Notes under the pieces: generated by a model
What the model was told of the DNA's origin: nothing
The model's input: the letters and a program-made list of their open reading frames with translations, nothing else
Database searches by the model: none
Position numbers and translations under genes: made by a program
Assembly (NCBI RefSeq): GCF_000300335.1
Contig: NZ_AMRM01000009.1
Location: forward strand, 62,001-126,000
Source of the DNA: Nitratireductor pacificus pht-3B
GTDB lineage: Bacteria > Pseudomonadota > Alphaproteobacteria > Rhizobiales > Rhizobiaceae
Length of the DNA: 64,000 nt
Direction: 5' to 3'
Part shown: positions 42,165 to 56,827 of the stretch, in pieces
Layout of the letters: every line of letters starts with the position of its first letter
How positions within the stretch are numbered: the first letter of the stretch is position 1

Positions 42165-42572
42165 TCAGTCCGGCAGGACCGCCGTCGCCTCGATCTCCAC
42201 CTTGGCCCGGTCCTCGATCAGCGCGGTGACCTGCATCACGCTCATGGGCGGGAAGTTGCGGCCCATCACGGCGCGGTAGGCCTCGCCAAGCTCGCGCAGG
42301 CGGCTTGTATAGGCCTGCTTGTCGGTGATGAACCAGGTGAGCCGCACCACATGCTCCGGCCCGGCGCCGGCTTCCTTCAGCAGCGTGACGACGTTCTCCA
42401 GCGCCTGCCGCACCTGGGCGATGAAGTCGTCGGTCTCGAATTCCTGGCTGCCGTTCCAGCCGATCTGGCCGCCCAGGAAGACGGTGCGCCCCCGTGCAAC
42501 GACACCATTGGAATATCCCCTGGCGGGAACCCAGTCGTCGGGCTGGAGAATCTGGTGAAGCGGGACAGTCAT
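42165..42572 (-). CDS. RidA-family (YjgF/UK114) protein
   Basis: Trimeric enamine/imine deaminase fold, 135 residues. MTVPLHQILQPDDWVPARGY, GRTVFLGGQIGWNG, ALENVVTLLKEAGAGPEHV and KVEIEATAVLP are family landmarks. At the place of the catalytic RidA arginine the protein reads PPMSVMQVTAL, so it belongs to a non-RidA subfamily and deaminase activity is not assured. It follows livF by 35 bp as the last gene of the aromatic-catabolic operon. A role in handling an enamine such as the 2-aminobenzoyl-CoA ring-reduction product is plausible (inference). Confidence 0.87.
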   Translation of the reverse strand: MTVPLHQILQPDDWVPARGYSNGVVARGRTVFLGGQIGWNGSQEFETDDFIAQVRQALENVVTLLKEAGAGPEHVVRLTWFITDKQAYTSRLRELGEAYRAVMGRNFPPMSVMQVTALIEDRAKVEIEATAVLPD

Positions 42573-42607
42573 GCTATTTCCTTCATGCTTGGGAACGGGG
42601 GGCGTGG

Positions 42608-43294
42608 TCACACGCCGAGAAAGCGCTCTTGGATGTCTTCCGTGAGTGCGGAGGGCGCGCCGGTCCATGCGGTGCGGCCTTTTTCGAGAATGACGCAGCG
42701 GTCCGCCACGGGCAGGAGCTCGCTCAGCGTCTTGTCGACGATCAGGATCGACTGGCCTTCCGCGCGAATGGCGCGGATGGCGCGCCAGATGTCCTGCCGG
42801 ATGACCGGGGCGAGGCCCTCGGTCGCCTCGTCGAGGATGAGCAGGCGCGGATTGGTGGCGAGCGCCCGGCCGATGGCCAGCATCTGCTGCTCGCCGCCGG
42901 AAAGCGTGCTCGCATACTGGTCGCGCCGCTCGGCGAGCCGGGGGAACAGCGCGTTCACGCCGTCCAGCGTCCACTTGCCCGGGCGGGCGGCGGCGAGGAT
43001 GTTTTCCTCCACCGTCAGGTTGGGGAAGCAGCGGCGGCCTTCCGGCACCAGCCCGACGCCGAGCCGGGCGATGCGGTGCGGCTTCATCCGCGTGATGTCC
43101 CTGCCGGCGAAGGCGATGCTGCCGGACTGGGCCGGGGTCAGGTGGCAGACGGAGCGGATCGTCGTCGTCTTGCCCATGCCGTTGCGGCCCATCAGCGCCA
43201 CGGCCTCGCCCTCCTCGACCGAAAGATCGACGCCGAACAGCGCCTGCGACTTGCCGTAGAAGGTTTCCAGCCCCTGGATGTCGAGCAGCCTCAT
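42608..43294 (-). CDS. livF: ABC transporter ATP-binding protein LivF (second system)
   Basis: 228-residue ATPase. Walker A GRNGMGKTTT, LivF-type GLVPEGRRCFPNLTVEENI, signature LSGGEQQMLAIGRAL and Walker B LLILDEATEGLAP. A lysine replaces the usual glutamine-histidine region near the switch (IVDKTLSELL instead of VEQN), a common LivF variant. Overlaps livG by ATGA. Confidence 0.93.
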   Translation of the reverse strand: MRLLDIQGLETFYGKSQALFGVDLSVEEGEAVALMGRNGMGKTTTIRSVCHLTPAQSGSIAFAGRDITRMKPHRIARLGVGLVPEGRRCFPNLTVEENILAAARPGKWTLDGVNALFPRLAERRDQYASTLSGGEQQMLAIGRALATNPRLLILDEATEGLAPVIRQDIWRAIRAIRAEGQSILIVDKTLSELLPVADRCVILEKGRTAWTGAPSALTEDIQERFLGV

Positions 43295-44040
43295 GCGCCC
43301 TCTCCCAGATAGGCTTCGCGGACATCGGGATGATTGCGGATCTCGTCGACCGTTCCCGTGGCGATGATGCGCCCGTAGACGAGAACGGAAATGCGGTCGG
43401 CGAGGGCGAAGACCGCGTCCATGTCGTGCTCGATCAGCAGGATCGGGGCCTCACGGCGCAGGCCGTCGAGAAAGCCGGTCAGCGCCTGCGAACCCTCCGG
43501 CCCCATGCCGGCCATCGGCTCGTCCAGCAGGAAGGCCCTGGCGCCGAGCGCCAGTGCGATGGCGATCTCGAGCTGGCGGCGTTCGCCGTGCGAAAGCTCG
43601 GCCGCCGGCACATCGGCACGGTCCGAAAGGCCGACGCGGGCGAGCGCCGCGCGGGCGGGTTCCGTCAGGCTCGCGTCGCGCATGACGGGCCGGAAGAAGC
43701 GGAAGCTCGATCCCTCGCGCGCCTGCACGGCCAGCATGACATTGCGCAGGGCGGAGAACTCCGGCGCCAGCGACGAGACCTGGAAGGTGCGGCCCATGCC
43801 TAGCCGCGCCCGCGCCGCAACGTCGAGCGGCTTGACGTCGCGCCCGGCGAAGCGGATCTCGCCGCTGTCCGGCTTCAGCGATCCGGCGATCTGATGGATC
43901 AGCGTCGACTTGCCGGCACCGTTGGGGCCGATCAGCGCGTGGATCTCCCCCGGCCTGAGGTCAAGGCTGACACCGTCCGTCGCCTTCAGCGCGCCAAAGC
44001 TCTTCTTCAGGTTGCGGATCTCGAGGATGGGTTCAGCCAT
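43291..44040 (-). CDS. livG: ABC transporter ATP-binding protein LivG (second system)
   Basis: 249-residue ATPase from ATG 44040 (MAEPILEIRNLKKSFG). Walker A GPNGAGKSTLIHQIAG, LivG-type GMGRTFQVSSLAPEFSALRN, signature LSHGERRQLEIAIAL and switch His in ILLIEHDMDAVF are visible. The start overlaps the livM stop by 8 bp. Together with livF, livH, livM and the receptor at 46144 it makes a complete uptake system, probably for an aromatic acid or amino acid handled by the downstream enzymes (inference). Confidence 0.93.
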   Translation of the reverse strand: MAEPILEIRNLKKSFGALKATDGVSLDLRPGEIHALIGPNGAGKSTLIHQIAGSLKPDSGEIRFAGRDVKPLDVAARARLGMGRTFQVSSLAPEFSALRNVMLAVQAREGSSFRFFRPVMRDASLTEPARAALARVGLSDRADVPAAELSHGERRQLEIAIALALGARAFLLDEPMAGMGPEGSQALTGFLDGLRREAPILLIEHDMDAVFALADRISVLVYGRIIATGTVDEIRNHPDVREAYLGEGA

Positions 44041-55773: not shown

Positions 55774-55847
55774 GCTCGCGCTCCGTCCTCCCAGGATCGC
55801 CTTCCACCTGGCTTTTAAGAAGGAAAGCATCGCACCGGCGGCGGGAC

Positions 55848-55877
55848 ATTTCAAGTATGAAATTTTAAGGTTGAAAT
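55848..55877. promoter_or_regulatory. Candidate MarR operator upstream of the aryl-CoA monooxygenase gene
   Basis: ATTTCAA (55848-55854) is mirrored by TTGAAAT (55871-55877) with 16 AT-rich bases between; TTTCA-AGTA-TGAAA is a nested dyad. It lies about 75 bp upstream of the start codon in an otherwise GC-rich region. Assignment to the cluster's MarR protein is inference. Confidence 0.5.
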
Positions 55878-55996
55878 ATAGTCTGCCTGTGGTCAGTGTA
55901 ACGCAGATGCGGGGCCGATGACAGGGAGCGGCCATCGCGCTATGCACAGCTTTGCCCGGCGGCAGCCCTCCGGGCCTTCGACGGAGGAGAGCCGAC

Positions 55997-56827
55997 ATGT
56001 TCTACCGGGAAATCGCCGACTGGGACGATGCCTATGCGAACGGCGCCAACATTCCGGGCGGCGACCGCTGGCCCGACCTCTGGGTCGCGCCGGCAAGGGC
56101 CTACCGCGAAAAACTGTCGGCTGCGGGCCGAGCCGAGCTCGACATCGCCTATGGGGACGGCGCGCGCAACCGGTTCGACCTGTTCCTGCCCGAGGGAAGC
56201 CCGCGCGGTCTGGTCGTCTTCATCCATGGCGGGTTCTGGCTGCGGCTCGACAAGAGCTTCTGGTCGCATCTGGCGGCGGGAGCCGTGGACAGCGGCTATG
56301 CGGTCGCCATGCCCTCCTACACGTTGTGCCCGGAGAACTCGATTGCGGGCATCACCGCGGAGATCGGCCGGGCGGTGACGGCCGCCGCCGGGCGCGTCGA
56401 CGGTCCGCTGATCCTGACCGGCCATTCGGCGGGCGGCCATCTGGCCAGCCGCATGGCATGTGCTTCCTCGCCGCTTCCCGAAGGCGTGCGGGCGCGGCTG
56501 CGGCACGTACTCTCCATTTCCGGCGTGCACGACCTGCGGCCGATGATGCGCACGGCGATGAACGAGGGCCTGAAGATCACCGCCGAGGAGGCGCAGGCGG
56601 AAAGCCCGGCGCTCCTTTCGCCGCTGCCGGGCATGCAGCTGACCTGCTGGGTCGGGGCTGCGGAGCGCGGTGAATTCCTGCGGCAGAACGCCCTGCTCGC
56701 CAACATCTGGACCGGGCTGGGCGCGCGCACGGCAATCGTCGAGGAACCGGACAAGCACCATTTCGACGTTATTGACGGTCTGGCCGACGCGGATCACCAG
56801 ATGGTGCGCTGTCTGTTGACAGTCTAG
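55997..56827 (+). CDS. Alpha/beta hydrolase, probable arylformamidase (kynurenine formamidase, AFMID type)
   Basis: 276-residue alpha/beta hydrolase. [20 protein letters not shown] carries the oxyanion HGGxW motif of animal-type kynurenine formamidases; the nucleophile is in [14 protein letters not shown], and the catalytic His region is [11 protein letters not shown]. The early [20 protein letters not shown] matches the substrate-loop N terminus of that family. The start follows ACGGAGGAGAGCCGAC. Divergent from the anthranilate-type cluster containing kynA, it would supply the second step, N-formylkynurenine to kynurenine. It is not the KynB cyclase-like formamidase common in bacteria. Confidence 0.78.

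Follow-up and report, generated by a model that had tools for sequence, protein, structure and literature searches.

Organization of the locus

The window, meaning the whole 64-kb stretch of DNA that was analyzed, contains a cluster of 13 minus-strand genes and one divergent plus-strand gene. Nearest the divergent gene is the gene for a 763-residue 2-aminobenzoyl-CoA monooxygenase/reductase (ABMR; 53482..55773; NF006101, 1303 bits, cut-off 1078). It is followed by genes for a short-chain dehydrogenase (SDR; 52557..53315; adh_short, 5e-59) that probably serves a beta-oxidation-type step, a MarR-family regulator (52087..52563; MarR_2/MarR domains; best PDB match 3boq) that is the probable repressor of the cluster, an enoyl-CoA hydratase (51278..52090; NF006107, 482 bits, cut-off 330) and an acyl-CoA dehydrogenase (49935..51077) with Acyl-CoA_dh domains and no NCBIfam model above its cut-off. 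Next are an aryl-CoA ligase, probably an anthranilate-CoA ligase (48302..49924; best PDB match 4wv3, 8e-86), and kynA, encoding tryptophan 2,3-dioxygenase (47466..48305; TIGR03036, 408.4 bits, cut-off 390.7). The transporter genes encode a periplasmic binding protein (46144..47280; Peripla_BP_6, 3e-79), livH-type (45014..45934) and livM-type (44033..45004) permeases, both open frames whose order is kept in relatives, and livG-type (43291..44040) and livF-type (42608..43294) ATPases of the branched-chain amino acid/urea type, for which none of the models listed is above cut-off. The last gene (42165..42572), a cluster member absent from the earlier gene list, encodes a RidA-family protein of the enamine/imine deaminase type (Ribonuc_L-PSP, 1e-22; NCBIfam Rid models below cut-offs). 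On the plus strand is an alpha/beta hydrolase, a probable animal-type kynurenine formamidase (55997..56827; NF058665, 378 bits, cut-off 320). Between the divergent genes is a strand-neutral twin 14-bp palindrome, TTTCAAGNNTGAAA (55849..55876), the probable MarR operator.

The minus-strand genes are tightly packed, with gaps of -8 to +35 bp save for four of 166-209 bp. The 4-bp overlap of kynA and the ligase gene falls at the spot where several sister genera carry kynU. Open frames and family models confirm that the catabolic genes, livFGMH and the receptor named in the original prediction lie at or near where it had placed them. Part of this arrangement recurs in other loci. The abmr, sdr, marR and ech genes occur together in 74 of the 80 named ABMR loci, and a RidA gene is within reach in 44 of them. 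These 80 are the best of 583 and therefore lean to close relatives. Genome-wide searches took 50 of the 80 loci (29 with kyn genes, three with the hydrolase and kyn genes out of reach, and 18 others) and left out 30. The 68 genomes searched were selected for carrying ABMR or kynA, and removal of the duplicates G431 (= G003) and G469 (= G013) before the hydrolase counts left 66. Some ABMR match occurs in 361 of 397 genomes of the order, a tally not used as an ABMR count because many of the matches span only the reductase half.

A probable route from tryptophan through anthraniloyl-CoA

The operon very likely serves to degrade tryptophan by an aerobic hybrid (CoA-ester) route that passes through anthranilate and anthraniloyl-CoA, in a soil bacterium with a Nitratireductor-like genome. 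KynA would open the indole ring of tryptophan, the divergent hydrolase would remove formate from N-formylkynurenine and kynureninase, encoded elsewhere in the genome, would split kynurenine into alanine and anthranilate. The ligase would then form anthraniloyl-CoA, and ABMR would hydroxylate and reduce its ring to give 2-amino-5-oxocyclohex-1-ene-carboxyl-CoA. Onward beta-oxidation-like steps and enamine hydrolysis would fall to the hydratase, the two dehydrogenases and RidA. By acting at the twin palindrome, the MarR protein would repress the two divergent promoters until released, probably by an aryl-CoA. All of these enzymatic activities are our inference, and so are the pairing of the regulator with the operator, the identity of the inducer and the substrate of the transporter. 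Linkage to tryptophan genes recurs, with kynA or kynU in reach at 29 of the best 80 of 583 ABMR loci.

The domains of ABMR, FAD_binding_3 and Oxidored_FMN, are of the FAD monooxygenase and old-yellow-enzyme (OYE) types, and its halves are matched by VioD-type and OYE-type structures. An excerpt of PMC4539516 describes 2-aminobenzoyl-CoA monooxygenase/reductase as a 170-kDa homodimer. This means about 85 kDa for each subunit, which fits the 763 residues of the window's ABMR. The ligase scores 372.1 bits against TIGR02262, just below (3 bits) the cut-off of 375.25.

The pathway itself is already known, so the cluster is a variant of it. The abm clusters of Azoarcus (Aromatoleum) evansii are similar in having a ligase, a fused monooxygenase/reductase and beta-oxidation genes. 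In work on the aerobic 2-aminobenzoyl-CoA pathway of A. evansii, Schuhle et al. in 2001 reportedly also placed a MarR gene, a binding protein gene and a RidA-like gene in the abm clusters. Unlike those clusters, the one in the window includes kynA and all of livFGMH, and its promoter region also serves the gene for a formamidase-like hydrolase. A Phaeobacter study is said to have found tryptophan degraded through anthraniloyl-CoA; no such work was found in the literature searched. Arthrobacter sp. Rue61a also has an anthranilate-CoA ligase and ABMR, and both ligase activity and anthraniloyl-CoA have been demonstrated according to excerpts of PMC3534580. However, its route is fed by quinaldine degradation, and the word "kynurenine" is absent from the main text of that source. 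For Cupriavidus metallidurans CH34, kyn and abm genes are listed for one genome, but the excerpted parts of the source mention no physical linkage between them and also list a 3-hydroxyanthranilate route (PMC8879955).

The location and history of kynureninase

The original prediction held that the cluster contains no kynureninase gene and that one might lie elsewhere. Both points are borne out. A search of the genome located kynU on another contig (G000:C20:80887-82038), scoring 302.6 bits against TIGR01814 (cut-off 246.4) and with Pseudomonas fluorescens kynureninase as its best PDB match (1qz9, 453 bits). The whereabouts of the "missing" kynureninase are thus settled: it is in the same genome, unlinked to the cluster. 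Sister lineages hold kynU inside the same operon, and in 11 of the best 80 of 583 ABMR loci the order ligase-kynU-kynA is consecutive, with kynU exactly between the other two. The genomic kynU and these operon-internal copies support the predicted passage from tryptophan to anthraniloyl-CoA.

What happened to the operon copy in the genus of the window? Every one of the ten genus members has kynA with a ligase neighbor, and in all ten genomes searched kynU is unlinked to the cluster and belongs to another kynU clade. The ten copies form a single clade (support 100/100). It falls outside a 98/92-supported clade of 25 rows. Of the 27 copies located no more than 5 kb from kynA, that larger clade holds 20, the Nitratireductor arenosus, Aquamicrobium and Chelativorans copies included. 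The neighbors of the genus clade are an unlinked copy (L237, 90/71) and one beside kynA (L244, 95/87). Plain relocation of the operon kynU is disfavored, given that the genus copies are separate from most kynA-linked copies. Because they branch outside the main kynA-linked clade, displacement of the operon gene by another kynU lineage is likely, although not proven, from the sequences.

A candidate operator

The twin palindrome between the hydrolase gene and ABMR is the only such pair in the 64 kb. At one mismatch or fewer only two sites occur there, against 0.02 expected. With up to two mismatches allowed, 77 of 92 loci carry the palindrome upstream of their ABMR gene, a count that is circular in that the pattern was derived from the same promoters, that includes duplicates (e.g., L065/L150 and L074/L264) and whose random control pieces came from the same loci. 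The palindrome is probably a MarR operator common to both divergent promoters, and as a candidate operator it could be used for tracing the regulon. The displaced kynU was expected to be under this operator as well, an idea since rejected. There is no site at two mismatches or fewer in 14 kb around the C20 kynU, and among the 11 kynU loci of the genus (L225-L235, from ten genomes, as L226 and L227 share one) the palindrome appears only as 2-mismatch sites in two. A common operator for kynU was therefore not found in the genus.

The divergent hydrolase as a probable formamidase

The NCBI name for the family of the divergent hydrolase (NF058665) is hormone-sensitive lipase (HSL) HaHSL. By profile and predicted structure, the protein resembles the kynurenine formamidase (KFase) of Drosophila more closely than it does HSL-type esterases. 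The profile search gives 8e-36 for KFase against 5e-14 for HSL-type esterases and 5e-4 for hormone-sensitive lipase 8zvq, and the predicted structure (pLDDT 95.3) matches KFase at Z 29, whereas the best row below, that of HSL-type esterases, reaches 24.6. Two structures rank above KFase: 2pbl, to which no function is assigned, and 9n8r, called Lipase 1. Yeast formamidase is also an alpha/beta hydrolase; it is not among the rows listed in these comparisons and counts neither for nor against. The Drosophila structures (4e11, 4e14, 4e15) share the fold (Z about 29, rmsd 2.7-2.8, 270-271 residues aligned), the HGGYW motif in the alignment and the serine triad, but have only 21-22% identity to the window hydrolase. 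An HGG[YF]W motif is found in 42 of 43 hydrolase sequences, and the Ser/acid/His triad S144, E223 and H255 is invariant in 40 aligned hydrolases (39 of 46 frames plus the window's own), all 40 of which match NF058665 at E 1e-20 or better. The triad acid is probably Glu223 (inferred position; Glu216 in HaHSL), whereas eukaryotic KFases have Asp according to an excerpt of PMC4243253.

KynB (TIGR03035) would catalyze the same step, and the excerpt describes the bacterial protein as an unrelated metal enzyme (PMC4243253). No KynB is above cut-off in any of the 68 genomes searched, the best score in the window's genome being 25.5 bits against 223; as a control, TIGR03035 is above cut-off in five of 150 genomes of the phylum. 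A strong hydrolase match is present in 50 of 59 kynA-bearing genomes and three of seven others (Fisher p 0.024, kinship ignored), in a sample chosen for ABMR or kynA and hence not free. In 29 of 53 genomes, no more than 20 kb separates the hydrolase gene from kynA or kynU. In two of three Mesorhizobium genomes examined it is beside ligase-kynA, with kynU facing, in a compact locus away from ABMR; in the third, kynA was not detected. Ruegeria pomeroyi DSS-3 has kynA next to the gene for a hydrolase 51% identical to the window's (SPO_RS21900), with both divergent from ABMR.

The formamidase step is probably carried out by a hydrolase labeled as a lipase but of the animal type. A wider proposal is likely, though less so than the pathway itself: that the HaHSL family, including 2PBL, is a bacterial branch of animal-type KFase that replaces KynB across alphaproteobacteria degrading tryptophan via anthraniloyl-CoA and is co-regulated through the shared MarR operator. 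This would give the 2PBL structure and the lipase family a candidate function, filling the formamidase gap of KynB-less bacteria. Excerpts of PMC6921082, PMC4243253 and PMC5341072 contain no description of a bacterial alpha/beta-hydrolase kynurenine formamidase.

Could the protein instead be an ordinary esterase or lipase, with N-formylkynurenine deformylated by another enzyme? This is unlikely. Many serine hydrolases cleave artificial esters, which weakens the esterase reading, and that reading has to contend with the KFase ranking over HSL-type esterases, the conserved motif, the proximity to kynA or kynU and the lack of any KynB above cut-off in the 68 genomes searched. In its favor, Lipase 1 outranks KFase in both the sequence and the structure comparison, nine of the 59 kynA-bearing genomes have no strong hydrolase match, and HaHSL, namesake of the NCBI family, was assayed on p-nitrophenyl esters according to an excerpt of PMC6921082.

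The transporter and external anthranilate

That the cluster has its own transporter holds as far as the livFGMH and receptor genes go, but their tie to tryptophan is less sure. Among the best 80 of 583 ABMR loci, kyn genes occur in 16 of 30 with the binding protein and 13 of 50 without (Fisher p 0.018), which leaves 14 of the 30 with no kyn gene in reach. Because of these 14 loci, and despite the kyn association, the transporter is not taken to be tryptophan-specific; instead of tryptophan, its substrate may be anthranilate or another acid of that kind.

The same 14 loci also speak for the idea that external anthranilate is the primary substrate of the cluster, with kynA and the hydrolase gene as mere passengers. 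So do the 51 of the best 80 of 583 loci that have no kynA or kynU in reach, partly through contig ends, and a 30-kb stretch of a Comamonas plasmid with ABMR, ligase, transporter, RidA and alpha/beta hydrolase genes and no annotated kyn gene. Even so, this is improbable. kynA sits inside the operon and overlaps the ligase gene, kyn genes recur in relatives in several arrangements and the probable operator is common to the hydrolase gene and the ABMR operon. Moreover, in 20 non-duplicate genomes selected for having no kynA or kynU at the ABMR locus, a strong kynA is found elsewhere in 13 and a strong kynU in 15.

Salicylate and 3-hydroxyanthranilate

The original prediction allowed for salicylate as the entering substrate. 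The ligase would then make salicylyl-CoA, and the two-domain enzyme would be a salicylyl-CoA 5-hydroxylase leading on to gentisate. Indeed, NF006101, whose cut-off ABMR exceeds, bears the name salicylyl-CoA 5-hydroxylase, and contig C1 has a cupin resembling gentisate dioxygenase (271 bits, cut-off 442) and adjoining a mycothiol maleylpyruvate isomerase-like domain. However, the idea is now disfavored as highly improbable. The window cluster contains no gentisate ring-cleavage gene, the ligase is nearest to an anthranilate-CoA ligase structure and, in searches covering 24 genomes for gentisate and 3-hydroxyanthranilate genes, gentisate dioxygenase is above cut-off in just three, with some match in 11. 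Salicylate also leaves unexplained the kynA/kynU linkage and the fused reductase domain, which hydroxylation alone would presumably not need. The label "bifunctional salicylyl-CoA 5-hydroxylase/oxidoreductase" is widespread, and it is argued to be wrong, within this clade at least, for enzymes that act on anthraniloyl-CoA.

A main flow of kynurenine to 3-hydroxyanthranilate via a cluster on contig C16, where a 3-hydroxyanthranilate 3,4-dioxygenase is above both cut-offs, is just as doubtful, since TIGR03037 is above cut-off in four of ten genus members, against ten of ten for kynA with its ligase neighbor, and the C16 flavin monooxygenase matches 2-methyl-3-hydroxypyridine-5-carboxylate oxygenase (1e-73) far better than kynurenine 3-monooxygenase (1e-15). 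Together, the 3-hydroxyanthranilate dioxygenase cluster and the gentisate-dioxygenase-like gene indicate that other aromatic routes exist in this genome.

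Organization of the cluster

All of the genes that the original prediction gathered at 42165-56827 (kynA, a hydrolase, an aryl-CoA ligase, the 2-aminobenzoyl-CoA monooxygenase/reductase or ABMR, an acyl-CoA dehydrogenase, an enoyl-CoA hydratase, SDR, MarR, livFGMH and a receptor) are present in the window, which is part of contig C9 of the source genome. In order of transcription, the minus strand encodes ABMR (53482-55773), SDR, MarR, enoyl-CoA hydratase, acyl-CoA dehydrogenase, aryl-CoA ligase, kynA, binding protein, livH, livM, livG, livF and RidA. The gaps between these genes run from -8 to +35 bp, apart from four wider ones (166-209 bp). 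Three of the four are occupied by GC-rich palindromic elements (47349-47426, 51113-51254 and 53347-53457), which are probably interspersed repeats of this genome. The ABMR start is separated by 223 bp from the start of the alpha/beta hydrolase gene on the plus strand (55997-56827). A metal (Mn/Zn-type) ABC transporter adjoins the cluster (38487-41154), its binding protein and one permease matching metal families, all under cut-off. Past the hydrolase are genes for a beta-ketoacyl-ACP synthase II (58213-59466; PRK07314, over cut-off) and an imelysin-like protein (59638-60894; under cut-off).

The pathway is known in parts. The abm route is described in Azoarcus (review, PMC4539516) and anthranilate-CoA ligase activity in Arthrobacter (PMC3534580), and a single Cupriavidus genome is listed as having both kyn genes and abm genes (PMC8879955).

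Kynureninase and kyn linkage

The cluster lacks kynureninase, and it had been suggested that the gene might lie elsewhere. It does. A TIGR01814 profile search of the genome finds kynU on contig C20 (80887-82038), scoring 302.6 bits where the cut-off is 246.4; C21 holds another match, which at 62 bits stays under the cut-off. The best solved relative of the C20 protein is the Pseudomonas fluorescens kynureninase 1qz9 (453 bits). The divergent frame adjoining this kynU reads like a GntR-type regulator. Nine further same-genus genomes were compared, and in all ten (mostly drafts) the best kynU and kynA are on different contigs or separated by 0.8 Mb or more.

The ligase and kynA genes are adjacent in all nine relatives and also in the window, where they overlap by 4 bp and therefore leave no kynU remnant between them. 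Among the 80 named ABMR loci (the best 80 of 583), kynU sits exactly between ligase and kynA in 11, and in eight more the two are adjacent with nothing between; three of these eight (L121, L124 and L125) have kynU downstream of kynA. In a tree of 45 kynU proteins the genus copies form one clade (100/100). Of the 27 copies found no more than 5 kb from kynA, 20 fall in a separate clade (98/92), including the N. arenosus copy. Because the genus clade falls outside this clade of most kynA-linked copies, displacement by another kynU lineage is a reading with moderate support from these sequences.

Across the best 80 of 583 loci, kynA or kynU is in reach in 29, both are in 17 and neither is in 51, and these linkage counts are lower bounds because some loci are cut by contig ends. 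ABMR, SDR, MarR and hydratase occur together in 74 of the 80. The nearest named relative in this set is Nitratireductor soli ZZ-1 (Phyllobacteriaceae, Hyphomicrobiales), with an ABMR 93% identical. Two of three Mesorhizobium genomes examined have a compact locus, away from ABMR, made up of hydrolase, ligase, kynA and kynU; kynA was undetected in the third. In Ruegeria pomeroyi DSS-3, kynA adjoins the hydrolase, both divergent from ABMR, and no kynU is annotated within that 30-kb stretch. Aminobacter aminovorans has kynA, transporter and kynU, with a 55%-identical ABMR cluster about 7 kb further. On a Comamonas plasmid, ABMR is clustered with genes for a ligase, a transporter, RidA and an alpha/beta hydrolase; the stretch around this cluster has no kyn gene annotations. 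With kynU in the genome and kyn linkage recurring, conversion of tryptophan to anthraniloyl-CoA holds as the main interpretation.

A predicted formamidase

NCBIfam assigns the hydrolase to hormone-sensitive lipase NF058665. The namesake of this family, HaHSL, was assayed on p-nitrophenyl esters, and the words formamidase and kynurenine are absent from the main text of that paper (PMC6921082). A PDB sequence search with a 40-member profile ranks the functionally unassigned 2pbl first (1e-110), 9n8r Lipase 1 second (1e-51) and Drosophila kynurenine formamidase (KFase) third (8e-36); then come esterases, from 5e-14, with 5e-4 for the hormone-sensitive lipase 8zvq. With a pLDDT of 95.3, the predicted structure aligns to 2pbl with Z 42.6, to 9n8r with Z 36.3 and to KFase with Z 28.9-29.2 (rmsd 2.7-2.8, 270-271 residues); the first structure ranked below KFase has Z 24.6. 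Foldseek returns the same top three. The alignment shows no variation at S144, E223 or H255.

A profile search found KynB (TIGR03035) over cut-off in none of 68 genomes; in the control, five of 150 phylum genomes had it. Taking 228 bits or more as a strong match, 50 of the 59 kynA-bearing genomes have the hydrolase vs. three of the seven that lack kynA, and in 29 of 53 it is encoded no more than 20 kb from kynA or kynU. In the remaining nine genomes with kynA no match is strong; two of them carry a 31-36% relative adjoining kynU, one with a stop codon within the match. Among the best 80 of 583 loci, the hydrolase is associated with kyn genes (14/18 vs. 15/62 loci; Fisher p 6e-5, kinship ignored). 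We predict that it is probably an animal-type formamidase in KynB's stead, which was less expected than the rest of the pathway. A PF04199 cyclase (metal hydrolase family) is encoded on C9 at 59049-59582, about 2.4 kb ahead of the window start, and scores 25.5 bits vs. the KynB cut-off of 223.

A shared candidate operator

The other less expected part is a shared twin candidate operator, the 14-bp palindrome TTTCAAGNNTGAAA. Allowing one mismatch, there are two sites in the 64 kb vs. 0.02 expected, arranged head to tail (55849-55862 and 55863-55876) in the gap between hydrolase and ABMR; two mismatches add a third site of the window, at 55813 in the same gap. Within 300 bp upstream of ABMR, 77 of 92 loci have the palindrome at up to two mismatches; the same count for the hydrolase is 29 of 43, against a background of 45 in 2000 random pieces from the same loci. 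By this measure the palindrome precedes the ligase in 5/77 (three being Mesorhizobium loci of which the ligase is the first gene, apart from ABMR), the binding protein in 2/41, RidA in 2/57, kynA in 1/51, SDR in 1/88 and livG in 1/31, and it was found upstream of neither kynU (0/31) nor the hydratase (0/92). The Mesorhizobium hydrolase-ligase promoter has it with one mismatch in all three cases, and R. pomeroyi has two adjacent sites, each with two mismatches. Since a MarR gene is present in 77 of the best 80 of 583 loci, the MarR protein is the likely binder. Its best solved relative, 3boq (4e-24), is listed as a MarR-family regulator and may be its orthologue.

Other aromatic routes

ALTERNATIVES What if the kynurenine went mainly to 3-hydroxyanthranilate instead? 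A dioxygenase cluster for this compound is present on contig C16, but the dioxygenase is over cut-off in only four of ten genus members and the flavin monooxygenase there is not nearest to kynurenine 3-monooxygenase, making this very unlikely as the main fate. This second aromatic cluster (100000-118000) encodes 3-hydroxyanthranilate 3,4-dioxygenase, an aldehyde dehydrogenase, a DHDPS-family protein and its own binding proteins. Its monooxygenase resembles 2-methyl-3-hydroxypyridine-5-carboxylate oxygenase, and the cluster also encodes a protein related to the formamidase-like hydrolase at 30% identity.

Salicylate, offered originally as another entering substrate, is hardly probable: although contig C1 has an under-cut-off gentisate dioxygenase relative beside a maleylpyruvate-isomerase-like gene, no gentisate genes were found in the cluster, and gentisate dioxygenase is over cut-off in just three of 24 genomes, the source genome not among them. 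The C1 locus (311000-329000), in which the gentisate-dioxygenase-like cupin adjoins a mycothiol maleylpyruvate isomerase-like domain protein, is possibly a separate gentisate-type route.

Among 60 plasmid ABMR relatives listed, 40 are named bifunctional salicylyl-CoA 5-hydroxylase/oxidoreductase, 18 have no annotated feature and two have another name. Because of the kyn linkage, that name is doubtful for this clade. As for the transporter of the 42165-56827 cluster, 16 of the 30 loci that have its binding protein also have kyn genes, and the other 14 do not (from the best 80 of 583).
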